The notes beneath the pieces were generated by a model that was not told the origin of the DNA, did no database searches, and was given only the letters and a program-made list of their open reading frames with translations. A stretch of 23,334 nt of DNA from Sphaerosporella brunnea (lineage: Eukaryota > Ascomycota > Pezizomycetes > Pezizales > Pyronemataceae), in NCBI GenBank assembly GCA_008704415.1, contig VXIS01000510.1:1-23334 (forward strand), given 5' to 3'. Below, piece by piece: positions 1-23,334 of the stretch (positions are counted from its first letter, which is position 1; the number at the start of each line of letters is the position of its first letter). The translations under genes and the position numbers were made by a program.

Positions 1-669
1 ATTCATTTGAGGGACCACCTCAAATAAAACAAAGCGCTCAAAGGCTTCCATATTCCAGAAACCTTCGACTATGTCAACTGCAAGAAACCCATCAAGACTC
101 ATTGCAGGTAGTACTGAATACCCGACCCCTCGAACAAACTGAATTTCTGCTTCAGCTCGCTGGCCATGTGTCGCGCGACCATATTTTCGGTAGGTGGTAC
201 GATCATCTTTTCGAGTTTCGTCCAGGAAGACAAACTGCTCAGGCCTATAATCGGCTGTTTCTAGCAGGAATTGTAACCGTTTTCTTCGGCTGCGCTCTCT
301 TGCAATTTTGGATAGGTGCTTTCGAGTTATTCCTTCGCGCTTGAGCATCGCTGATATAGTAGTCAAACAGACCTGCCACCGATCTTGTGTCGCAAGTAGC
401 ATGGCTTGCAACTCATCAAGAAAAATATCCGGTTGAGCAGACAACACCTCGAGAAGATAATCAACAGCCTGCCTATCAAACACTCGGGGTCTTCCACTGG
501 GTGCATGCCGCGGCGGCGCAACACTACCATACTCCCGGTAGTTTTGACGAACTTGTCGTATTGTCCGTTCCGAACAGCAAAACAATTTGGCCGCATCCTT
601 GGCTTTTATCCCTTCGCCGAGTCCGATAATAATCAGCTCCTTGATTTCGCACGCAATATAGCGGTACAT
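1..669 (-). pseudogene. Partial IS630/Tc1-type transposase (left arm copy, cut by window start)
   Basis: This is the mirror image of the first 223 codons of the transposase at 3247-4221, read on the minus strand from an ATG at 669-667. It contains the N-terminal helix-turn-helix region and the first catalytic Asp (LDET). The second Asp and the Glu lie beyond the window. No stop or frameshift is present in the visible part, so it is partial only because the window ends. Whether it is a real second copy depends on whether the palindrome is real. Confidence 0.75.
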
Positions 670-1188
670 AGCTGGGACCGCTGGGTTTCCGGGATTGTGG
701 TAGCGACGCCGAGACGGGACCGCTGGTAGAGACGTCGAGAATCTCGGTGGCAGGGCGATGCTATACAATCAGCACCCGTCAAGAAATGGTAGCGCTATGA
801 CACATACCAGGTGTAGCGACCGCTGGGTTTTGGGGATTGTGGTAGAGACGCCGAGACGGTACCGCTGGGTTTCGGGGATTGTGGTAGCGACGCCGAGACG
901 GGATCGCTGGTAGAGACGTCGAGAATCTCGGCGGCAGGGTGATGGATGCTATACAATCAGCACCCGTCAAGAAATGGTAGTGCTATAACCCATACCGGTG
1001 ATGTGTCCACGCCGAGACGCTGGGTTTTGGGGATTGTGGTAGAGACGCCGAGACGAGACCGCTGACACATACCAGGTGCAGCGACAGCGGGGTTTTGGTG
1101 ATCGTGTAGCGACGCCGAGATGGCAGGGCGATACTGGGCAATCTAAAAGCTCACAAAATGGGGGAACGCAATGACCCTCCGTCACAGT
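670..1188. repeat. GC-rich subterminal repeat block, left arm copy
   Basis: Mirror image of 2728-3246, described there. The core unit reads here as a ggattgtggtag-centred motif followed by cgacgccgagac, repeated four times with changes. It separates the left-arm transposase fragment from the terminal repeat at 1189-1285. No gene is visible. Confidence 0.8.
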
Positions 1189-1285
1189 ACACCGAACCAG
1201 AGCAATTTCACGCGAGCAAAAAGTCTAAATTTGCGCTAAAACAGCGAAAAATTTCGAGTTTGGCCTAGAGTTTCTGGAACGGCTG
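1189..1285 (-). repeat. Terminal inverted repeat of the mariner-type element, left arm copy
   Basis: Reverse complement of 2631-2727 and the third copy of this sequence in the window (the others are 2631-2727 and 5936-6035). Its outer end, at 1285, is followed by TA and then the AT-rich minisatellite, as expected for an element inserted at TA in the opposite orientation. The copy is part of the palindrome, so it is not independent evidence for a separate insertion. Confidence 0.8.
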
Positions 1286-1289
1286 TAAC

Positions 1290-2626
1290 CCTTACAAACA
1301 TCACAATTATTAGAATTACCTCAATCATCACAACGTTCAGAATCATCACAATAATCAAAATGATTTCAATCAGTACAATGTTTACACTGTTCAGAATCAT
1401 CACATACATTTCAATGATCACAACTCATCAGATTTGTGTTAACCCTTACAATCATCAGAATAATTAGAATACTCTCACTTATTACAATCACCAGAATCAT
1501 CACAAGGTTCAAAATCATGACAATCATTCAATCTTTATAATTTTGACAATCATTGTAATCATCGGGATTTTGCACTCATTACATTCATCGCAATTATGAC
1601 AATTATCAAAATTATTGCATTCAGCATGATGATGACAATTATCAGAAATCCCACAATCATTACCATCATTACAAACAGCATAATAATCAAAATCATTGCA
1701 ATAATCGCAATCATTGTAATGAAGACAATGGTGACAAACATTACAATCATCTGAATAATCTGAATCATCAAAATCATGAGAATCATTATCATCATATCAA
1801 TTATAGCAATCATTACAAATATTACAATGCTCAGGATCATCACAATCATTATAATCATCTTTATAATCATCACAATCAGCATAATGATCAAAATCATTGC
1901 AATCATTGCAATCATGTCAATCATTGTAATAAGGGTGATCATTACAATCATAGCATGATCATCATGCTATGATTGTTTGTCCCTTATTACAATGATTGAC
2001 ATGATTGCAATGATTGCAATGATTTTGATCATTATGCTGATTGTGATGATTATAAAGATGATTATAATGATTGTGATGATCCTGAGCATTGTAATATTTG
2101 TAATGATTGCTATAATTGATATGATGATAATGATTCTCATGATTTTGATGATTCAGATTATTCAGATGATTGTAATGTTTGTCACCATTGTCTTCATTAC
2201 AATGATTGCGATTATTGCAATGATTTTGATTATTATGCTGTTTGTAATGATGGTAATGATTGTGGGATTTCTGATAATTGTCATCATCATGCTGAATGCA
2301 ATAATTTTGATAATTGTCATAATTGCGATGAATGTAATGAGTGCAAAATCCCGATGATTACAATGATTGTCAAAATTATAAAGATTGAATGATTGTCATG
2401 ATTTTGAACCTTGTGATGATTCTGGTGATTGTAATAAGTGAGAGTATTCTAATTATTCTGATGATTGTAAGGGTTAACACAAATCTGATGAGTTGTGATC
2501 ATTGAAATGTATGTGATGATTCTGAACAGTGTAAACATTGTACTGATTGAAATCATTTTGATTATTGTGATGATTCTGAACGTTGTGATGATTGAGGTAA
2601 TTCTAATAATTGTGATGTTTGTAAGG
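1290..2626. repeat. AT-rich minisatellite at the palindrome centre
   Basis: Degenerate short units of the type caatcat / atgattgt run without a break for about 1.3 kb. They read as ATCA/ACAAT on the left half and as the complement on the right half, turning at about 1958. Open frames here translate only to Met/Ile/Val strings and are not genes. Both outer edges carry a gtaagggtta motif (right copy 2621-2630) that supplies the TA at which the transposon begins. A second gtaagggtta lies inside the array near 2467. No promoter or RNA gene is recognisable. Confidence 0.85.
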
Positions 2627-2630
2627 GTTA

Positions 2631-2727
2631 CAGCCGTTCCAGAAACTCTAGGCCAAACTCGAAATTTTTCGCTGTTTTAGCGCAAATTTAGACTTTTTGC
2701 TCGCGTGAAATTGCTCTGGTTCGGTGT
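2631..2727 (+). repeat. Left terminal inverted repeat (97 bp)
   Basis: Starts CAGCCGTTCC after the TA target site and matches the reverse complement of 5936-6035. The only differences seen are a 3-nt indel (ctgtttta here, ctgttgtttta there, in the same reading direction) and one substitution near the inner end. It contains an imperfect internal stem (ttcgct / agcgcaa). Such long TIRs in Tc1/mariner relatives usually carry the transposase binding sites. Confidence 0.85.
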
Positions 2728-3246
2728 ACTGTGACGGAGGGTCATTGCGTTCCCCCATTTTGTGAGCTTTTAGATTGCCCAGTATCGCCCTGCCATCTCG
2801 GCGTCGCTACACGATCACCAAAACCCCGCTGTCGCTGCACCTGGTATGTGTCAGCGGTCTCGTCTCGGCGTCTCTACCACAATCCCCAAAACCCAGCGTC
2901 TCGGCGTGGACACATCACCGGTATGGGTTATAGCACTACCATTTCTTGACGGGTGCTGATTGTATAGCATCCATCACCCTGCCGCCGAGATTCTCGACGT
3001 CTCTACCAGCGATCCCGTCTCGGCGTCGCTACCACAATCCCCGAAACCCAGCGGTACCGTCTCGGCGTCTCTACCACAATCCCCAAAACCCAGCGGTCGC
3101 TACACCTGGTATGTGTCATAGCGCTACCATTTCTTGACGGGTGCTGATTGTATAGCATCGCCCTGCCACCGAGATTCTCGACGTCTCTACCAGCGGTCCC
3201 GTCTCGGCGTCGCTACCACAATCCCGGAAACCCAGCGGTCCCAGCT
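2728..3246 (+). repeat. GC-rich subterminal repeats before the transposase
   Basis: A 35-40-bp unit centred on ggcgtcNctaccacaatccc followed by aaacccagcg occurs four times, near 2865, 3019, 3061 and 3201. Larger blocks that begin gacgggtgctgattgtat recur at 2948 and 3137, about 190 bp apart. The region is GC-rich beside the AT-rich minisatellite. It lies between the TIR and the transposase start, so it could be promoter or transposase-binding DNA. No coding potential is convincing: the upstream in-frame extension of the transposase frame only translates the repeat. Confidence 0.75.
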
Positions 3247-4221
3247 ATGTACCGCTATATTGCGTGCGAAATCAAGGAGCTGATTATTATCGGACTCGGC
3301 GAAGGGATAAAAGCCAAGGATGCGGCCAAATTGTTTTGCTGTTCGGAACGGACAATACGACAAGTTCGTCAAAACTACCGGGAGTATGGTAGTGTTGCGC
3401 CGCCGCGGCATGCACCCAGTGGAAGACCCCGAGTGTTTGATAGGCAGGCTGTTGATTATCTTCTCGAGGTGTTGTCTGCTCAACCGGATATTTTTCTTGA
3501 TGAGTTGCAAGCCATGCTACTTGCGACACAAGATCGGTGGCAGGTCTGTTTGACTACTATATCAGCGATGCTCAAGCGCGAAGGAATAACTCGAAAGCAC
3601 CTATCCAAAATTGCAAGAGAGCGCAGCCGAAGAAAACGGTTACAATTCCTGCTAGAAACAGCCGATTATAGGCCTGAGCAGTTTGTCTTCCTGGACGAAA
3701 CTCGAAAAGATGATCGTACCACCTACCGAAAATATGGTCGCGCGACACATGGCCAGCGAGCTGAAGCAGAAATTCAGTTTGTTCGAGGGGTCGGGTATTC
3801 AGTACTACCTGCAATGAGTCTTGATGGGTTTCTTGCAGTTGACATAGTCGAAGGTTTCTGGAATATGGAAGCCTTTGAGCGCTTTGTTTTATTTGAGGTG
3901 GTCCCTCAAATGAATCCTTTTCCCGCAAAAAATTCAGTTTTAGTCATGGATAACTGCAGAATTCACAAGAGCGGTTTCATGCTGAATATTTTGGGAGGTT
4001 TAGGTATCCGAGTACATTTTCTTCCCCCCTACTCACCAGATTATAATCCGATTGAGCAGGCCTTCTCAGTATATAAAGCTTGGCTGCGGAGGAATGGTCA
4101 TGTTGTTAGAACCTATGCTGGTTCTCCAATATCAATTTTAGTACGAGGATTATTCGAGAGTGTTGGCTTAGAGGACATTGCCGGATTTTTTAGAAATTGT
4201 GGTTACAATAATAATGTGTAA
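3247..4221 (+). CDS. Tc1/mariner (IS630)-family transposase, DD34E
   Basis: Intronless frame of 324 codons. It would cut and rejoin the element's ends through a DDE RNase-H-fold active site. The N-terminal ~50 residues form a helix-turn-helix (the DAAKLFCCSERTIRQV segment), followed by a second DNA-binding helical segment up to ~135. The catalytic residues are D150 (FLDET), D235 (VMDNC) and E270 (in PYSPDYNPIE), so 34 residues separate the second Asp and the Glu. A family-typical RGxGYSVLPAMSLDG stretch lies at 180-194. I chose the ATG at 3247 because the open frame upstream to 3148 merely translates the subterminal repeats. No stops or frameshifts are present and the length fits the family, so it is potentially active. 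A poly(A)-like AATAAA lies at 4227-4232. The gene converges with the element's second gene. Confidence 0.9.
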   Translation: MYRYIACEIKELIIIGLGEGIKAKDAAKLFCCSERTIRQVRQNYREYGSVAPPRHAPSGRPRVFDRQAVDYLLEVLSAQPDIFLDELQAMLLATQDRWQVCLTTISAMLKREGITRKHLSKIARERSRRKRLQFLLETADYRPEQFVFLDETRKDDRTTYRKYGRATHGQRAEAEIQFVRGVGYSVLPAMSLDGFLAVDIVEGFWNMEAFERFVLFEVVPQMNPFPAKNSVLVMDNCRIHKSGFMLNILGGLGIRVHFLPPYSPDYNPIEQAFSVYKAWLRRNGHVVRTYAGSPISILVRGLFESVGLEDIAGFFRNCGYNNNV

Positions 4222-4301
4222 AGTAAAATAAATTGACGCCAACACCCAGTGTGGTTACAATAATAATGTGGAAAATAAAATAAATTGAGGTCAACACCCG
4301 G
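4198..4301. repeat. 52-bp tandem duplication at the convergent gene ends
   Basis: Two units, 4198-4249 and 4250-4301, each start tgtggttacaataataatg and end aacaccc plus 2 nt, with only a few substitutions. The first unit overlaps the last codons and stop of the transposase. The second contains the stop codon of the minus-strand gene. The duplication probably serves as shared 3' end/terminator DNA, but this is inference. Confidence 0.85.
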
Positions 4302-5683
4302 AATCTCTTCCCAGCAACCGTCTCAATACAACCCTTTTGCCAATACCGTTTTTCCCAAAAATACTGTCAAGGTCCGCATCAGACATTCCAGGAATCAAGT
4401 CCGTTGTGATTCCATTGTCTTCCAGGTCTTCCTGAAACGCTAAAAAATCGTGTGCCGGATACAGCTCTTCTAATCGGCTAAGAAAAATTGAAAGCGGTAA
4501 CTGTAGTAATTCCTGACGTAGAGGATGCATTGGTTGAGTGTTTTGGGCAGAAGGGAGAACCATTGGTGCGATCGGTGAAACACCAGGAGCTGAAAATCCA
4601 CTCTGAGAGCCTGGGTAGGCGGTATAAAATACTGGCGGGAACGCTGGGTTCCCATAGAAACTTGACGGCACTTGAGGGATGGAGGGAAGCGTCCAAGGCT
4701 TGCGAAGTTCGCTTATAGGCTGCACGATGGTGCTAGCTTGTGGATCCGTCGGTTCGACATTCGATTGCGAGGATGATTGCGACGTCGAAGCGGAATTTGA
4801 CACCCGTGCTTTTGTTTTGTGCACGATATTGTCAAACAAATGATTTGGCGGCGGGTTTCGTTCCGTTATTCCGGGTTGGCCGTCTTTCAGATTTATCGCC
4901 CAAAGCTTCAACGTTACTGGTGTCAAGGCTACATGCTGTCCGTCGCGCTTGATGTAGCAGCCCAATTTGTTCCCAGCGTGGGTCATGCAGCGGTTGGCTT
5001 CCTGAATCCGCTGTGCAATAGGCACTAGCTCATCTTGTTTTTCTTCGTCTCGATCCGCTGCTGATTTTGTCTGAATATTGTTTGAGTGAATCCATTTTTA
5101 CCGTGCGATTTATAGCCTAACTTTCCGTTTCTTTCCCTTGCTTACGTCCACGGACCCTTCTACATCTGTACCGACAGATCTTTTCTTGACCTCAGGGACC
5201 ATTTCAATATTCAAGCTCCATCCTGTCGCTTTTCGCTTCCTGGAAAGATAGTTCAAAACCGTTTCCTGGCAAATGAAGGCGTCACGGTCTGTTTCCATTT
5301 TGATCCATGGTTCCTTGACCGCCATATAGCTCAATTCATATTGTAGCTTATATCTGATAGATGTTTGAGCAAGTGTCTCATCCTCCGCAGTTTCTGCAAT
5401 AAGGTTGTGCAGATATTCCATGTTCAGAGGGACGTCCTCCTGTGGTGGATCAATATAAACCATAGTCGTTGTTTGGCCTTCCGCCGGTGTGATAATTGTC
5501 AGACGTGCCGGCCACGGTCTCGCTGCCTCTCCCTCCTCCTACCATATAATTAGCTTTTATGGTCTCCCAGGTGACCGACCGCCAGCAACTTACCTGCTGA
5601 GATGTTTCCAGTAACTGCTCACACTCCCGGGGTGTGAGCCCGGCGAGGTATTCCTCCGGACCAGTAATATCTTGTGACGACAT
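4291..5683 (-). CDS. Transposon-borne accessory protein with C-terminal SAM-like domain (3 exons, 428 aa)
   Basis: Exons 5683-5594, 5538-5122 and 5070-4291 join in phase 0 to 428 codons. Intron 1 (55 nt) has a gtaagt donor, a gctaat branch site and a tag acceptor. Intron 2 (51 nt) has a weaker gttagg donor and a ttcag acceptor, and it removes two in-frame stops. The N-terminal part (1-170) is charged and ends with a basic GKKRK cluster that could be a nuclear signal. A middle conserved-looking block (~185-250) is followed by a Ser/Gln- and Pro-rich linker. The last ~65 residues look like a sterile alpha motif: LEDNGI, then LIPGMSDADLDSIFG, then GIGKRVVLRRLL. I recognise no catalytic motif. 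It lies wholly inside the mariner-type element, convergent with the transposase, so it may be a DNA-binding or oligomerising helper. It could also be a captured host gene. The splice model is mine. Confidence 0.65.
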
Positions 5684-5687
5684 GCCG

Positions 5688-5800
5688 CTTTTGAAATTAG
5701 TTGCTTGCTTGATTTTATGGGGCTCTCGAGGATCTTACTTACCTGCTGCTCACTCAGTTGGCCTGCTGCTCACTCAGTTGGCCTGCTGCTCACTCAGTTG
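5688..5800 (-). repeat. 20-bp tandem repeats and leader intron of the accessory gene
   Basis: Three 20-bp units (cctgctgctcactcagttg plus one base) fill 5741-5800. On the minus strand the last unit ends cagcag followed by gtaagtaag, a near-consensus donor. A caactaat branch site and an aaag acceptor follow, giving a putative 55-nt intron at 5742-5688 just upstream of the ATG at 5683. The repeats would then be a non-coding first exon. All frames through the repeats have stops, so this is a leader and not coding sequence. Confidence 0.5.
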
Positions 5801-5935
5801 CTTGCTTTCTCCATGCTCTCGAGCCTACTATGCAGTTTTGATGCTCCGCGCAACCAAGGCCTCACCTGGCGCAAGAGTCCTCTTGCCGAGCAATGACGCT
5901 CCTTCATGCGACGTCCGCGTCATTTTCCCTTAGCC

Positions 5936-6035
5936 ACACTGAACCAGAGCAATTTCACGCGAGCAAAAAGTCTAAATTTGCGCTAAAACAACAGCGAAAA
6001 ATTTCGAGTTTGGCCTAGAGTTTCTGGAACGGCTG
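5936..6035 (-). repeat. Right terminal inverted repeat (100 bp)
   Basis: Reverse complement of the left TIR at 2631-2727, with a 3-nt insertion. The outer end at 6035 is followed by TA and then by the protease-coding frame of a retroelement. From here inward, 5801-5935 holds only leader sequence for the accessory gene. Confidence 0.85.
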
Positions 6036-6750
6036 TAACAAAGTTCTTCACAGCTTGCCTTACCGACACTGGGAGGCAATACTGACGACAGTACTCACTG
6101 CGCCACTGCATCGTCCCGGTTTGCCAGTCTATGTCTGAGTTGTGCTGCTCTAACCAGGAGATGGGTATATAGCCCGAGACCTCTGTCTCCAGCTGACCTA
6201 TCTCCCAAGTCATCTCCTCTTGGTGCTCCACAATCCTCATACATAAGAGGTTGGTAAAGCGGGTACCAGTCTCTGCTAATGGGGTCCCATCTGCCCCGGT
6301 CACCTAAATGGGAGTGTCTCTTTTTATCCATGGCAACTTATGCTCGAACACAAAGTCTTTATTCAAGATAGGCCCAGAACACTTTGAGTCAATCAAGAAT
6401 CTTCCTTTGCAACTACGAGACTTGCCATACTCTGTGGTCCACCAAATGTCTGCCACTAGGAACATTCTCTTCCCATGTCTTGGAGGATCCACACTAGGCT
6501 TCTTAGGCATTTGCCTTTCTGCCACTACCGTCTTTCTCTTAAGGGGGTTCATGGTTCTGTACGTCTTAGGCCTTTTGACACCTAAGCAAGCGCAACGTCT
6601 TGCTGAACTACGTCTCTGTGGGATATTGGTATGTCTTTGTCTGTATGCCCTCTGCTGACTCTTATATGCCAGCATATTTCGGGTACTGAACCCATCCTCA
6701 GAGAGCCTTTTTCCTTTAAGAACGACAATTTTAATTTCAACTATAAAATC
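6036..6750 (-). pseudogene. Retropepsin (pol N-terminus) of the Gypsy-like element, broken
   Basis: The frame opens at 6750, directly after the gag stop and in the +1 frame relative to gag. The active-site region reads FLIDSKCSG where retropepsins have D-S/T-G, so the catalytic Asp is kept but the Gly of the triad is Lys. The following segment (FVFEHKLP) and, after an in-frame TAG at 6306-6304, VTGADG and SGYIPISWLEQHN match the typical flap and C-terminal region of fungal Gypsy proteases. The frame continues to 6036, where it runs into the TIR of the DNA transposon. The TAG could come from CAG by one C-to-T change. Confidence 0.7.
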
Positions 6751-6754
6751 CTAA

Positions 6755-8800
6755 CTACAAAGCCCAGATATCCAGATCTGAGTCTTCTCCTTCAGGGATC
6801 TCCAGGATCCTTCCCGACGCAGCTGTAGGGGCCTGAGGCTGCGTGCTAGCAACCTTAGCCTTCTTCTCAGATTTCTCATCTGAGTCCTCAGCCTTTCTCT
6901 TCTTCGAGCTAGCCACCTTCTGGGTGACTGGCTCCTTGGTGAAGCATTCGAACCAAGAGTGGTTCTTCTTGCCACACTTCAAGCTGAGCTTTTCCTTAGC
7001 TCGCTGATTGAGGACATCCTTGCTGATGCCCTTAAGCTCGACAGTCTTATCCTTCCAGGTGCTGTCTTTCTTCGGCTTGTCCTTGCTGGACGAAGCCTTG
7101 TCGGAGGGCTTGAAGGCAGGATTGGGCTTTGAGCCTTGTCCTTTCTCCTTCCTATTGCTCTTGCCACCTTGACTGGTGGACTTCTTGTGGCGCCGTTCCC
7201 AATCTTCGAGGACATGACCCATGTCTCGCAGCATGGCCATCTGGGCACTCACATTGTTGGGCTTAGGTTGAACCTTAGCCCAATCCTTGGACAGTTCTTC
7301 GGACAGCCCCTCCTTGAGCTTATCCTTGACCATGTCCCCTACGTAACCAGTGATCCACATCAATCTGGTTACCTCATCCAGGAAGGCATCAATGCCGGCC
7401 GTCTGCCGCAACTTCTGCCATTCCTGTACTGCCTTGTCACGATTGACACGGCCGCCGAACGAGGCCCTAAGGCTAGCCTCAAATCTCTCCCAGGTCGCGA
7501 AGCTGGGATCATTGATCCAGAATCGTCGGACACGGATCGACTCCTTTCAATCTATGTTGATTTTGTAGGTGGCAAACCAATCGTACGCCGCCTCTTCCAT
7601 CAACAATCCGGCCAAGAGGATCTTGGTGAGGTCATCTGGGTAGGACCTCGGATTGAGCCTGAAGTATGAATCCAGGCTCGATAGGAACCGGTTAAGGTCT
7701 CGTTCCTTGCCCTTGAAGGGCTTTGGTTTGGGCACCTTAATCGACCTTGGCTGTTGCTCAGCCTCTATGTGGGGCCTTGGATTGGCCCCAGGCTCCTTGA
7801 TGATTTGGCGACGGTGCCACTTCTTCCAGCGTACGGGCTGTCGCTGGTGATCTGGTTCGGGGTCGAAATCGTCGTCATCATCGTCATTAGAATCTCCTGG
7901 TGGAGGTGGTCCTCCACTGATTCCTCCTCTTCTACCTCCAGAGCCACCAGCGCCTCCTGCACCAGCCGGCTCCGGGCTCTCAATTCTCCTTCCCGGACTT
8001 TCCATGCCCCCAGACTGACTATCTCCTCCTTCCACCCCTCCTGATCTTCCCAACCCTTGTGTTCCACCTGGCCGGACAGCAGCTCCTCTCATCATGTACT
8101 GTTGAGGAGTCCCGGGTGCTGAGGGTATTGGCGTCTGGTGGATTACCGGTCGCTTGCTTCGCTTAGCAACACCCTTTTTCGCTTTCGGCTTTGTAAGCCA
8201 ATCTGGGTCCGATAGCGGAGTTGTCCGCGATGGAAGTTTGCGGACGATCCTGAGGGGTACGTGCGAGGCTTGCAACGATTGAGGTGGGATGGGGGGAACG
8301 GAGGCAGCTTCTCGGTATTCGGCCTGCGTCTAGTGACTCTTGGCCGCTTCTTCCTCTAGGAGACCGCTGAGGTCCCAGAGGGCGGCTGGGGTTGGCTCCC
8401 AATCCATCTGATCAGCCTGTAAGTCGTCTTGCTCGGCTAAACGACTGAGCTCTTGGTACATGAGCTGGACATGTTGCTGCATCTCAGCAATTGCCATCTC
8501 ATGAAGCCTACGAGTAGCCTCTTGCTGCTCGACTATTCGTGCGAGCACAGTGTGCACTCCACGGACCTGATCCTTGACTAACTCAAAGACCAACTCTTGG
8601 ATCTGCTGAAACAGCTGATCCATGTTTGCCGCGGAATCAATAGACTCCGTGACATCTTTCGCTGCAACCCCCAAGATGAGTGAAGCGACTTCTCTGGGGT
8701 TTCTAACTATGGGGCGATGGCTGTTGGCCTCAGGATACTGCTGGGGGTTCCCCTCAAGGAGCGGAACTTGGGGGGCGGGCTCGATGGTGATAGAGGCCAT
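6755..8800 (-). pseudogene. gag polyprotein of the Gypsy-like element, two in-frame stops
   Basis: One reading frame of 682 codons starts at an ATG 48 nt downstream of the primer-binding site. It is interrupted by TAG at 8332-8330 and TGA at 7549-7547. The N-terminal third is coiled-coil-like and Gln-rich (QQIQELVFELVKDQ). A Gly/Pro-rich linker with an Asp run (DDDDDDFDPEP) follows, then a retrotransposon-gag capsid core (FKGKERDLNRFLSSLDSYF ... WERFEASLRASFGG). Near the end lies a zinc knuckle in which the first Cys is Ser: S-LK-C-GKKN-H-SWFE-C. The tail is Lys/Ser-rich. Each stop can be explained by one C-to-T change (CAG to TAG, CGA to TGA). Confidence 0.75.
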
Positions 8801-15976: not shown

Positions 15977-18900
15977 ATGTCGTCTATGCGTGGTATGTAC
16001 CAGCTTCGCCGAAGAACTCAAACTCCACGCACGACCGAAGGGATATCAATTGATTGCGGCGTCTGTGGATAGGGCTGGTGCAGTTCATTGCAGACTTGAG
16101 AAATGCACGGGCACGAGAACTGGAGGAAAAGCGAATAAACAAGGAGCTGGCAAACATTCGGTTAGTTCAGCCCACGAAACCCGCTACGAAACCCGCTGAT
16201 TTATCCAAGGCAAAAGTTCAAAGGCAAACTCTCCGGCAGGCTTTTGTGAAGACAAGGTTATGGTGATCGCTGACCAACTTTGAAGACGGTGGCTTGAATG
16301 GGTACCACAAGAAAAAATATGTCTGCAAGGTAGAACGCACCCCCGATCATTCGCTGAAGCAAGCCCGCTCACCTCCTTAGCTTCTGTATATCTATATTCT
16401 AGGATGGAATGTCGATTTCGGTCACCTAGAAGCCGTAGGTCTCGTCTCCGCGACCAAATACTCCGAAAAGCAGATCGGATACCTGGCGGTTACTCTATTT
16501 TTAAACGAGAAGCACGATTTCTTGCATCTGGTGGTCAACAGCATCAAGAAGGATCTCTTGGACAACAATGAGCTAAACAACTGCTTGGCATTGCATGCCA
16601 TCGCCAACGTGGGAGGACGAGAGATGGGAGAAGCCCTCAGCCCTGACGTCCATCGGCTGCTTATATCACCGTAGGCCACTGACTTGTCGCATTTCTATTT
16701 GTGCAACCGGAAGCTTAAATGTTTCTAGTACCTCCAAGTCATTCGTCAAGAAGAAGGCCGCTTTGACACTACTACGACTCTACCGAAAATTCCCTGGCAT
16801 CATCCAAAATGAGTGGGCGGAACGCATCATATCCATCATGGATGACCCTGACCTAGGTGTTGCATTGTCTGTGACGTCGCTTATCATGGCTTTGGTACAA
16901 GATAACCCCGAGGCATATAAGACCAGTTATGTGAAAGCAGCTCATCGGCTCAAGCGCGTCGTCGTCGATAATGAGTACATTCAAGACTACATATACTATA
17001 AAGTCCCTTGCCCGTGGATCCAGGTCAAGTTATTGAGACTTCTTCAATATTATCCGCCTTCAGGTAAGCATATCTTTTTTCAGCAATTCCATCCAGCTAA
17101 CCCGATTTGTAGAGGATGTCAATATTCAGAACATGATTCGCGACTCGTTACAACATATACTCGACACCGCATCTGACACGCCCAAAAACGTCCAGCAGAA
17201 TAATGCCCAAAACGCCGTACTGTTCGAAGCGATAAATCTAGCTATCCATCTCGATTCGGAGGCTGGACTAATGACCCAGATTGCTGTCCGGTTGGGGAGG
17301 TTTATCACTTCCAGGGAAACGAACGTTCGCTACCTGGGTTTGGAAGCAATGACCCATCTTGCTGCGCGATCTGAAACACTTGAACCGATTAAAAAGCATC
17401 AGAATACAATCATTGGCTCTCTGCGGGATCGAGATATCAGTGTCAGGAGAAAAGCCCTGGATTTGTTGTACAGCATGTGCGACCCAACAAATGCGAATAC
17501 CATCGTCTCTGAGCTCCTCAAATATCTGCAAGGTGCAGACTTCGCCATTCGGGAAGAAATGGTCCTGAAAATTGCTATCTTGACGGAGAAATATGCCACA
17601 GAATATCAATGGTACGTCGACATATCGCTCCGGCTCATTAGCATGGCTGGAGATCACGTGAGCGACGAAGTGTGGCAACGAGTGATACAAATCGTCACGA
17701 ACAACGAGGAGCTGCAAGTATATGCGGCGCAGAACATTCTGCAACATCTGAAGGCTGCCCAATGCCATGAAACTTTGGTGAAGATTGGAGGTTACCTATT
17801 GGGCGAATTTGGCCATCTCATCGCAGATAACCCCGGTTGCAGCCCAATTGAACAGTTTCTGGCACTGCAGTCTAAATTCAACGGATGTTCATCCAACACC
17901 AGGGCTATACTACTTTCGTCATTCGTCAAGTTCGTCAATCTGTTCCCAGAAATCAAGCCTCAGCTATTACAAGTCTTCCGGGCATACAGTCATACCTTAG
18001 ATCCCGAACTACAACAACGGGCCTGCGAATACCTTGCTCTTGCAACGCTGCCAACAGACGAGCTGCTTAGAACCGTTTGTGATGAAATGCCACCTTTTCC
18101 CGAGCGTGCTTCAGCGCTTTTATCCAGATTGCACCAAAAACATGCTGGAACTAGTGACAAGCGCACATGGGTGATAGGAGGCAAAGACGCCAATGTCGAG
18201 AAGAAGGAATTCAATCTCACGCTCAACACTGGCTTGAAACGGACCTTTACGAACAACGGTGCGGGGACCCCCACCAACGGTGGCTTGTCCAGTCCAGCGA
18301 AGCCGGTCGCATTAACTCCGACTCAGGAGTTAGCCGGCATCGATCTCAACGGCAGTGCGGCGAAGAAGCAACCGCCTAATCTTGCCGCGCCCACTCATCT
18401 CAGCCCTGATTGGGAAGTCGGCTATAACAGATTACTCATCAGGTCAGAGGGTGTTCTTTTTGAGGATGGGCAAATTCAGGTGGGGCTGCGATCTGAATAC
18501 AGAGGACATATGGGCTGCATCATCCTTTATTACACCAACAAGTCATCCGCGCCGATAGGCTCGTTCACAACTACAGTCAACAATAATTCGCCCGGACAGT
18601 TGGTGATCAATTGCACCAATATTCCCGATCCCACCGTGCCCGCCGAAAGCCAGACACAACAGACCATAATGCTCGAGGCTCATCAAATATTTTCAGAGGC
18701 ACCTACCATTCGCATTTCGTATCTGGCGGGTGCGCTGCAAGCGCTCACACTCAAGCTTCCAGTGGTTCCAACGAAATTTATGGAGCCAGCGAATCTTTCG
18801 GCGGAAGATTTCTTCAAGCGTTGGAAACAGATTGGAGGTGGCTCTCGAGAATATCAAAAGGTATTTGGGATAAGGATCAAAGGGCATCGGATTGAGCCCC

Positions 18901-19217
18901 CTAGGGCCCGGAGAGTTATTGAAGGGTTCAAGTGGGGCATTTTGGATGGTGTTGATCCGAATGCCAAGAATTTTGTTTGTGCAAGCGTTTTACACACGCT
19001 GGAGGGTGGGAAGTTTGGCTGCCTTTTGCGAGTAGAACCGAACCTAGAAACCGGGGTGAGCATTTACACACTCTGGTCTTTTCGTAATCACTGACAATCA
19101 CTGCAGATGTACCGCGTCACAGTTCGAGCAACGGACGAAAATGTCCCGCCAGTATTGGTGAAGGTCATGGAAGGTCGTCTTGCCCTCGGCTCGCCGCCAC
19201 CTGATAATCAGCGGTAA
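15977..19217 (+). CDS. AP-2 complex subunit alpha (alpha-adaptin), 8 exons, 946 aa
   Basis: Large subunit of the plasma-membrane clathrin adaptor. It binds PtdIns(4,5)P2 and dileucine cargo and recruits endocytic accessory proteins. Exons: 15977-15992, 16073-16160, 16210-16223, 16286-16329, 16381-16670, 16729-17063, 17113-19055, 19107-19217; all phases close. Residues 5-40 carry the conserved GLVQFIADLRNA and RINKELANIRQKFK helices, and YHKKKYVCK (46-54) is the phosphoinositide-binding basic patch. The adaptin trunk runs to ~604, a Gly/Ser/Pro/Ala hinge to ~690, and the appendage (beta-sandwich plus platform) to the end, with the family-typical FFKRWKQIGG. Exon 3 is a 14-nt microexon and intron 3 has a GC donor. 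Introns are 49-80 nt with ctaac/ctgac branch sites. Full length, with no disruption. Confidence 0.93.
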
Positions 19218-21180: not shown

Positions 21181-23334
21181 CAGCGCCACTTAATGTAAAG
21201 TCATATGGTGCAAGGCGCTTTAGCCCCAGACCTTCGGGGTTTTGGGGTTACCCGGAGCAAACTAGCATTATTTGGCTGTGGTGCACGCGAGCGCGCGGCG
21301 GGGTGGACCTTTTCTCGATCGCAATTCTACGTCCTACGTCCCCGCCGAATTTACGTTACATTACATTACGCGATGGGTAAAATCACAATCCTCGACGAGG
21401 GCAAGGTAGTGGGTTTCCAGCTCAAGGAAACTGCGGAAGATAGTGAAAAGGGGAGAGCAGTCTTCTCGCGCGTCGAGCTTCCACCGGGAATTTCAAGAGA
21501 GGAGGTGGAAATTGTGCGCACTGGCTGGCCGCAGTCTGCGCGCCTCCGGCAGCGCTCCGATGCGCGGCTTGACAAGATCAAAAGCGTGATCTTGAAAGAA
21601 GGTATGGTGCGCCACCTGTTCAACAGATCGCAACCTAACTAAACCTCGCAGCCTGTGCAGATCTAAAGCGGATCTTGACGTTGAAAACCCTGCGGCCTGC
21701 TGAAAACGAGGGTGCCGACCGAAAGTGATTGCTGCAAGTCCAGGCCTTCCTCAACTTTCAACTGACGGGGTTGAAGCGGAGGTTCTTCAGACAATCCCGG
21801 AAGATTCTAGCATCAATGGTGGCTGCTGGTGACAACAAAGGACAGTGGGTGCGGGAACGGATCATGCGTCAAGAAACCCACTGGGTTCGCTATCGCACGT
21901 TCTTTTGCAGCCAGCAAGGACGATTTCCAAAGCATTTAGACAAGTTGCTGGATGAAGGAACAATCCTTTTTATGCGAGAGTACCTGAATGAGCACACGGA
22001 GGGAATTACCGCCCAGAAACTGGCTCAGACGATAGTGGGCTTCTGGAAGATGCAGGGAATTGCGGCGGGGGTCACCGAAGACGCGGTCTGCGAGACACTT
22101 AATAGTTCGACGGCTCGGCGGCATCTGAAGAAGGAAGGATTCCACTGGAAAGACCTCACAAAAGGCCTTTATAAGGATGGACACGAGCGTCATGATGTGG
22201 TAGACTATAGAGAGCACAAATTCCTTCCATTGATGGCTGAACTCAAACCTAAAATGGTTGAATTCTACCTCGATCAAGATCTTGTCAGAGCGCACGTTCC
22301 AAATACCGTTGGTCCAGGAGAACGTCCTATCGTACCGACGTACCAAGACGAGTCAACCTACAATGCAAACGATGGACTGAGTAAGGGCTGGGTGACAGAG
22401 GAATGGTACCCTTTACGTCCAAAAGGTGATGGAGCTGGGATTAATGTTTCTGACTTCACCACACCAGCCGGACGGCTTCGTGCTCCGCAAGGAACGCATC
22501 CTAACCGTCTGCCAAAATTCGGCTTGGCTGAAGGTTGGCGTAAAGACCCTGCGCAAGCGGCTATGTTCCTGGAGTGTGGAAAAGGGACATGGTGGAACTC
22601 TGATCGTCTCATCGAGCAACTTGAAGAAGTTACCATCCCGTTGTTCGATCTCGCGTTCCCTGGGTGCCAAGCTCTCTTTATTTTTGACAATGCAACCCTC
22701 CACCGCAGCTATAAAGATGATGCGCTACGAGTACAGAACGTCAACTTGTACCCTGGGGGAAAGCAGGCGATAATGCGATCTGGGTGGAACCAACGGAATG
22801 GACGCGAACAGGAGATGGTCTTGCCTGATGGAAAGGCCAAAGGGGCAAAGATGATCCTTCAAGAGCGCGGTTTGTGGGATGCGGGGTTGCTCGTACAGTG
22901 CAAAGACGTACACGACTCAAGTCGATTGAACCCAAATTGCCTTCAGGGTTGCAATCGCTGTGCGCGCGGGCGCCTTGCTATGGAACCAGACTTTCAAGCC
23001 CAAAGGTGTCGTGTGGCAGAGGTCATTGAGAAGCACGGCCATTTGGTTACCTTTCTACCAAAATACCACCCCGAGCTCAACCCAATTGAGTACATCTGGG
23101 GCCGGTCAAAGATCTACGCTCGCAAGCACTGCGAATATTCGCTCTCTGCGCTTCGTGAAATGGTTCCCAAGTGTCTTGGACAAGCAGTTGTGACAGACAA
23201 GATCGTGTTACAATTTTTTGCCCGAGTGGAGCGCATCATGGACGCTTATCGTCATGGGGAAAAATATGGAACACTGGCATTCAAAGAGCGTGTATATAGA
23301 AGTCACCGCAGAGTGGGCGACGGGGGTCTGTAAT
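21181..23334 (+). mobile_element. Second DNA transposon (left end and transposase), cut by window end
   Basis: The putative left end is CAGCGCCACTTAATG at 21181, directly after TA (21179-21180), as in Tc1/mariner-like elements. It is ~190 bp upstream of the transposase start. The right end lies outside the window, so the TIR cannot be checked. The element lies ~550 bp upstream of the PLP homeostasis gene and points away from it. Confidence 0.5.
21373..23333 (+). CDS. DDE-superfamily transposase of a fungal family with a large insert (3 exons, 614 aa)
   Basis: Best model: exons 21373-21601, 21652-21724 and 21791-23333. Intron 1 (50 nt) has gtatgg, a ctaac branch and cgcag. Intron 2 (66 nt) has a weak gtgatt donor, a ctgac branch and cttcag; it removes the TGA at 21726-21728 in phase. 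If intron 2 is not used, that TGA ends a 101-codon product and the rest starts at the ATG at 21816. Catalytic residues are D287 (YQDEST), D400 (FIFDNATLH) and E534 (HPELNPIEYIWG). The 133 residues between the last two include a C-x3-C-x2-C cluster, against ~34 in Tc1/mariner. The C-terminal MDAYRHG ... YRSHRRVG is typical of a family abundant in fungal, especially mushroom, genomes. The stop falls one base before the window end. Confidence 0.8.

Follow-up and report, generated by a model that had tools for sequence, protein, structure and literature searches.

The stretch of DNA analysed here, called the window throughout, is 23,334 nucleotides long and corresponds to contig C458:1-23334 of the assembly of Sphaerosporella brunnea, a pyronemataceous cup fungus (50.6 Mb, 640 contigs), in which the genome searches were made; C458, C155, C541 and similar names are labels used within the genome analysed. 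Near its start lies an element of 3,405 bp (2631-6035), in which a pair of terminal inverted repeats (TIRs) encloses an intact transposase gene and, convergent to it, a second gene with three predicted exons. By the features examined (TA target, TIRs, helix-turn-helix (HTH) and DDE_3 domains, DD34E spacing) it is a Tc1/mariner element, and its two-gene layout recurs in the S. brunnea genome. The features of the element and of the sequence preceding it are the following:

1..1285, minus strand: second, inverted copy of the transposase-side end, identical in sequence and truncated where the contig begins (genome search, self-comparison)
1286..2630, unstranded: array of 9-bp repeats separating the inverted ends, palindrome centre at 1936-1980 (repeat search)
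2629..2630, unstranded: TA at the left end (read from the sequence)
2631..2727, plus strand: left terminal inverted repeat (self-comparison)
2784..3242, plus strand: subterminal repeats from the left TIR to the transposase start, with 16-bp and 42-bp units (repeat search)
3247..4221, plus strand: DD34E transposase, 324 amino acids, HTH_23 and DDE_3 (open reading frame, Pfam, residue spacing)
4198..4299, unstranded: 52-bp tandem duplication with both stop codons inside (repeat search, sequence read)
4291..5070, minus strand: second gene, exon 3, including the stop (gene model)
4306..4524, minus strand: predicted SAM fold at the C-terminus of the second protein (structure prediction)
4933..4989, minus strand: C-x2-H-x6-C-x7-H motif of the second protein (alignment of four sequences)
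5071..5145, minus strand: second gene, predicted intron 2, 75 bp, GTAAGC..CAG (gene model)
5146..5538, minus strand: second gene, exon 2 (gene model)
5539..5593, minus strand: second gene, predicted intron 1, 55 bp, GTAAGT..TAG (gene model)
5594..5683, minus strand: second gene, exon 1 (gene model)
5742..5801, unstranded: three 20-bp tandem repeats near the second gene start (repeat search)
5936..6035, minus strand: right terminal inverted repeat (self-comparison)
6036..6037, unstranded: TA at the right end (read from the sequence; of four flanking-repeat copies read, three have an uninterrupted TA here and the fourth has TG)

The two genes of the window element

An earlier note on this DNA had described TIRs of about 100 bp, with TA on both sides, around an intact DD34E transposase, and this is confirmed at 2631-2727 and 5936-6035. 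The 92 bases of the left end agree between the two repeats except for one 3-bp insertion or deletion, and are followed by one mismatch and four bases; the genome search gave no TIR match above 92% identity elsewhere. The transposase open reading frame (ORF) at 3247-4221 is intact and encodes 324 amino acids matching the Pfam families DDE_3 (E 4e-25) and HTH_23 (E 6e-6). These two alone scored above their cut-offs among the seven families returned at E<=0.1, none of which is a Harbinger-family transposase domain. The catalytic triad consists of D150, D235 and E270, with the 34 residues between D235 and E270 giving the DD34E spacing. Besides P0009 of S. brunnea, the closest named proteins among the best 120 of 482 matches come from basidiomycetes, at 36-42% identity; the protein searches scored 7,991 and 7,995 candidates sharing most words, and absences there carry little weight. 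The transposase genes of two relatives, on C541 (L029) and C155 (L030), share the position of a presumed intron, which is lacking in the window copy.

The second gene (4291-5683, minus strand) is modelled with exons at 5683-5594, 5538-5146 and 5070-4291; the two predicted introns between them, 55 and 75 bp long, begin with GT and end with AG. The convergent three-exon gene proposed earlier is thereby retained as a prediction, with 420 residues instead of the 428 codons then given. The tandem-repeat 3' end said to be common to both genes is correct, since the transposase stop lies in copy 1, and the second-gene stop in copy 2, of the 52-bp duplication at 4198-4299.

Relatives and insertion sites in the genome

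A search of the genome with the transposase, which scores best candidates only, gave matches on eight contigs: C458, C155, C541, C56, C125 and C46, with fragments on C590 and C224. The second gene is present on six of the eight. The other two, C590 and C224, have transposase fragments of 75 and 88 amino acids, at which the second-gene searches gave no match. Five elements besides that of the window (C541, C155 and C56, and the more distant C125 and C46) hold both genes tail to tail, flanked by inverted repeats of 62 to 150 bp, with TA outside those ends that were readable; owing to breaks in the assembly, an inverted repeat coincides with the contig end in C541 and with the contig start in C56. 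Since diverged relatives in the genome keep both genes, the second gene appears to be a permanent component of what moves.

The exon 3 ORF matches five loci (window, C541, C155, C345 and C56), all of which adjoin transposase sequence, C345 retaining exon 3 together with 33 residues of the transposase tail. The C125-type second gene is found at seven places. Those on C125 and at C46:295249 adjoin transposases; for those on C457, C365 and C278 the contigs stop 53 to 627 bp downstream, at the expected transposase 3' end; and the remaining two, a 35-residue match at C46:132067 and one on C17, have no transposase in the DNA examined. Full copies may be under-counted, because contigs break at or inside the elements of C541, C56, C457, C365 and C278. 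Another possible copy, L044 13-3255, was rejected as not being a relative: it contains an ORF that is integrase-like by reading, placed between 90-bp inverted repeats of 77% identity.

In all four full elements of the window group, tandem repeats occupy the interval from the left TIR to the transposase, their sequence differing from element to element. The same interval holds a short repeat of 2.5 copies in C46, and no tandem repeat was found there in C125. Five short copies, about 300 to 440 bp in length, lie on C107 (roughly 330 bp), C72, C335, C114 and C186; each retains both ends but has no room for the genes, and pieces of the subterminal repeats are kept in four of them. C107 and C72 are bordered by TA on both sides; C335 has CA at one end, the first base is changed at one end of C186, and only one end of C114 fitted the pattern used.

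The clearest insertion site is that of C155, whose flanks were joined at a single TA and searched against the genome. Along their whole length of 302 bases, the joined flanks are 87% identical to C260, and 35 of the 40 matches listed cross the junction, two others being C155 itself and three not reaching across. The interrupted repeat looks like a long interspersed nuclear element (LINE) by reading. Since the joined flanks reproduce uninterrupted copies of this repeat, both genes were inserted as one unit at a TA. The C155 ends read TTA and TAA, that is, a 2-bp TA repeat where the empty site holds one TA, as in the TA duplication of Tc1/mariner elements, and not the 3-bp target duplication of the PIF/Harbinger kind. 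The proposal of a Tc1/mariner element that carries a second gene, with splicing predicted, is thus supported by five relatives with both genes and by the C155 empty site. A repeat site of the C155 type is also interrupted at G000:C179:214557-215847, the interruption being roughly 1 kb long and in nearly the same position. With the joined flanks of C125, only the two halves of C125 itself reach the junction among the 40 matches listed (40 of 125 candidates scored).

The window locus gives a different picture. Its right flank (6036-6900) is a dispersed repeat, gypsy-like by reading, with 28 matches, of which 19 further ones extend over the full stretch at 90-96% identity; one of its ORFs gave no match in Pfam. 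All four copies of this repeat that were read continue leftward in its own sequence, where the left flank of the window element is instead the 9-bp array, found only on C458 itself and, with three mismatches, once on C381. The two flanks therefore disagree and do not derive from one simple insertion. Taken by themselves, the TIRs of the window element accordingly do not prove, as had been claimed earlier, that the second gene is inside the mobile unit; the proof comes from C155, where the empty site shows single-unit insertion.

The discordant left flank belongs to a palindrome with which the contig begins. Its arms, 1-1935 and 1981-3915, are perfect reverse complements, and the 45-bp centre (1936-1980) is itself nearly palindromic. 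The transposase-side end therefore appears twice in this part of the contig, in opposite orientations on either side of the 9-bp array. The palindrome may be a library or assembly artefact at the contig end. It may also be real: if two inverted copies formed a composite whose outer ends served for insertion into the dispersed repeat, the foreign left flank would be explained. The two-gene layout is independent of the palindrome, because it is seen at other loci. Elsewhere on the same contig lie a host AP-2 alpha adaptin gene (Pfam; 17133-19094) and, at the opposite contig end, a second DDE_3 transposase-like ORF of 505 amino acids (21816-23333).

The second protein and its divergence

The predicted second protein contains a C-x2-H-x6-C-x7/8-H motif, present in all four aligned sequences, that of the window included, and a Pro-rich linker. 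A SAM fold is predicted at its C-terminus, and among the structural matches listed for it are SAM domains of the chromatin proteins Scm and Ph. Sequence searches of Pfam and PDB with the second protein gave no relevant match; a Pfam SAM match was obtained neither at E<=1 for P0001, C345 and C56 nor at E<=0.1 for window exons 2 and 3, in searches where the HMMER filters drop most weak matches. The structure model of the C125-type second protein suggests a similar order of elements at low confidence, and no SAM entry is among the 50 matches listed for it; no SAM fold is therefore claimed for this type. Profile comparison of the window-type and C125-type proteins gave a weak relationship (11%). 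A four-cysteine array of the C125 type can be seen by eye in P0122, and the Cys-motif pattern scan on this type, whose spacing was too strict and in which some rows were gapped, returned nothing. The C17 locus (L063 1384-2685) is an ORF of 434 amino acids, one stretch of which shares 32% identity with the C125-type second protein; its N-terminus looks zinc-finger-like by eye. No relative of the second gene was confirmed in viral contigs or in bacterial or archaeal genomes.

Compared with the window copy, C541, C155 and C56 show 51-65% identity in the transposase and 28-33% in the second protein, in nearly the same order of relatedness. Among these four elements, identities range over 51-81% for the transposase, 28-57% for exon 3 and 22-60% for exon 2; the six pairs rank identically by transposase and by exon 2, exon 3 differing in the last two ranks. 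The second gene thus diverges fast relative to the transposase. Synonymous sites are saturated in nearly all pairs, for which the ratio of nonsynonymous to synonymous substitution rates (dN/dS) was not used. Only one pair was usable, that of C155 with C345 (219 codons of exon 3, C345 being truncated), and its dN/dS is 0.22. It shows 34 residue changes, as against 53.5 +/- 3.6 expected, with a minimum of 41, when the same base changes were placed at random 5,000 times. No stop has arisen where two are expected on average, an outcome reached by chance in 14% of the placements. The dN/dS and the deficit of residue changes indicate, from this single pair with its truncated member, that the second gene has been under purifying selection. 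The value below 1 that had been anticipated for accessory ORFs is found in this pair, the others being saturated.

A two-component reading, its rivals and its meaning

The second protein of PIF/Harbinger elements is Myb-like, whereas that of the window element has a Cys/His motif and a predicted SAM fold. Mobilisation of PIF/Harbinger requires two element-encoded proteins (PMC2836001), and the autonomous Harbingers of Ectocarpus have two tail-to-tail genes and a 3-bp target duplication (PMC12477816). The window element would work like PIF/Harbinger in its two-gene design without being one, since the transposase family and target length differ. It has in common with DD34E Tc1/mariner elements the TA target, the TIRs, the HTH and DDE_3 domains and the spacing, and it adds the convergent, predicted-spliced second gene and element-specific subterminal repeats. 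The earlier note knew of no described element of this layout. That view has to be narrowed, as Tc1/mariner elements with additional ORFs are known from ciliates: TBE encodes a zinc-finger protein, and Tec has one ORF in the complement, TIRs of about 700 bp and a recombinase (PMC7325037). Compared by description only, TBE and Tec resemble the window element in combining a DD34E transposase with further ORFs, and differ from it in having three ORFs and, for Tec, in the TIRs of about 700 bp and the recombinase. In fungi, TremE and TremF of Paracoccidioides are Tc1/mariner elements with two ORFs in one direction, of 335+217 and 143+505 amino acids (PMC2836289); from these lengths they look like split transposase frames, unlike the separate convergent gene of the window element. 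Ti_tr2 of Tuber indicum, a Tc1/mariner of another Pezizomycete, is 1,868 bp long with a TA target, 45-bp TIRs and one putative gene of 370 amino acids (PMC3864998). The part of its description available mentions no second gene, which suggests that such a gene is not general to Tc1/mariner elements in Pezizomycetes. Within the open-access literature, as far as the parts available go and Repbase aside, no fungal Tc1/mariner with a convergent second gene was found, so that novelty can be maintained at most for fungi.

Taken together, the window probably holds an autonomous-looking member of a two-gene DD34E Tc1/mariner lineage of S. brunnea, whose second protein would be a DNA-binding, self-assembling transposition cofactor. 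The transposase would cut and join at TA, as follows from the DD34E family and the empty site. The second protein, made from the predicted spliced convergent gene, would enter the nucleus and may use its Cys/His motif and basic region to bind the element ends or the subterminal repeats. Its SAM domains could then link the bound copies, bringing the ends together or shielding the element from silencing. By helping the transposase to pair the ends, it would make transposition two-component, as in PIF/Harbinger.

Helper, silencing antagonist and captured host gene had all been considered earlier for the second gene. VANC of the Arabidopsis VANDAL elements is an anti-silencing factor, and the second protein could likewise bind the element repeats and lift host repression while being dispensable for catalysis. 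The Cys/His motif, the listing of the chromatin SAM domains of Scm and Ph among matches to the predicted fold, the fast divergence relative to the transposase and the element-specific repeats are all in keeping with this role, although none of them sets it apart from that of a transposition cofactor and the protein matches no Pfam family, and we consider it rather unlikely. The cofactor role is likelier because it matches the PIF/Harbinger design, with two needed element-encoded proteins that are tail to tail in Ectocarpus. A captured host gene carried as cargo, with no role in transposition, would fit the predicted spliced structure, the empty Pfam result and the two C125-type loci, out of seven, with no adjoining transposase. 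It is nevertheless very improbable: recent capture is disfavoured by the five exon 3 loci, all of which adjoin transposase sequence, no host paralogue was found, and at least four elements with transposases 51-81% identical have retained the gene, which makes it old for passive cargo.

The layout might also be an artefact, the window being a chimaeric assembly of two insertions, as could be suggested by its discordant flanks and by the perfect palindrome of 1,935 bp with which the contig opens. The same layout is however repeated at five other loci, one of them with an empty site, and the window TIRs form a matched pair with no counterpart in the genome above 92% identity, which makes such a chimaera improbable. 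The cofactor reading can be extended, quite tentatively, to a two-component Tc1/mariner lineage held by Pezizomycetes, in which a Cys/His and SAM protein would polymerise on the subterminal repeats, pairing the ends or lifting silencing, and in which the window palindrome would be a composite: two inverted copies, with the 9-bp array between them, would have inserted into the dispersed repeat through the outer ends of the whole.

Tc1/mariner elements are the textbook one-protein transposons, hence their crossing between species and their use as tools. If the cofactor reading is true, a fungal lineage that keeps a second protein through deep divergence would mean that Tc1/mariner elements too can turn two-component, like PIF/Harbinger. 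The paired elements and the short non-autonomous copies would be natural substrates for testing the need for the second protein.

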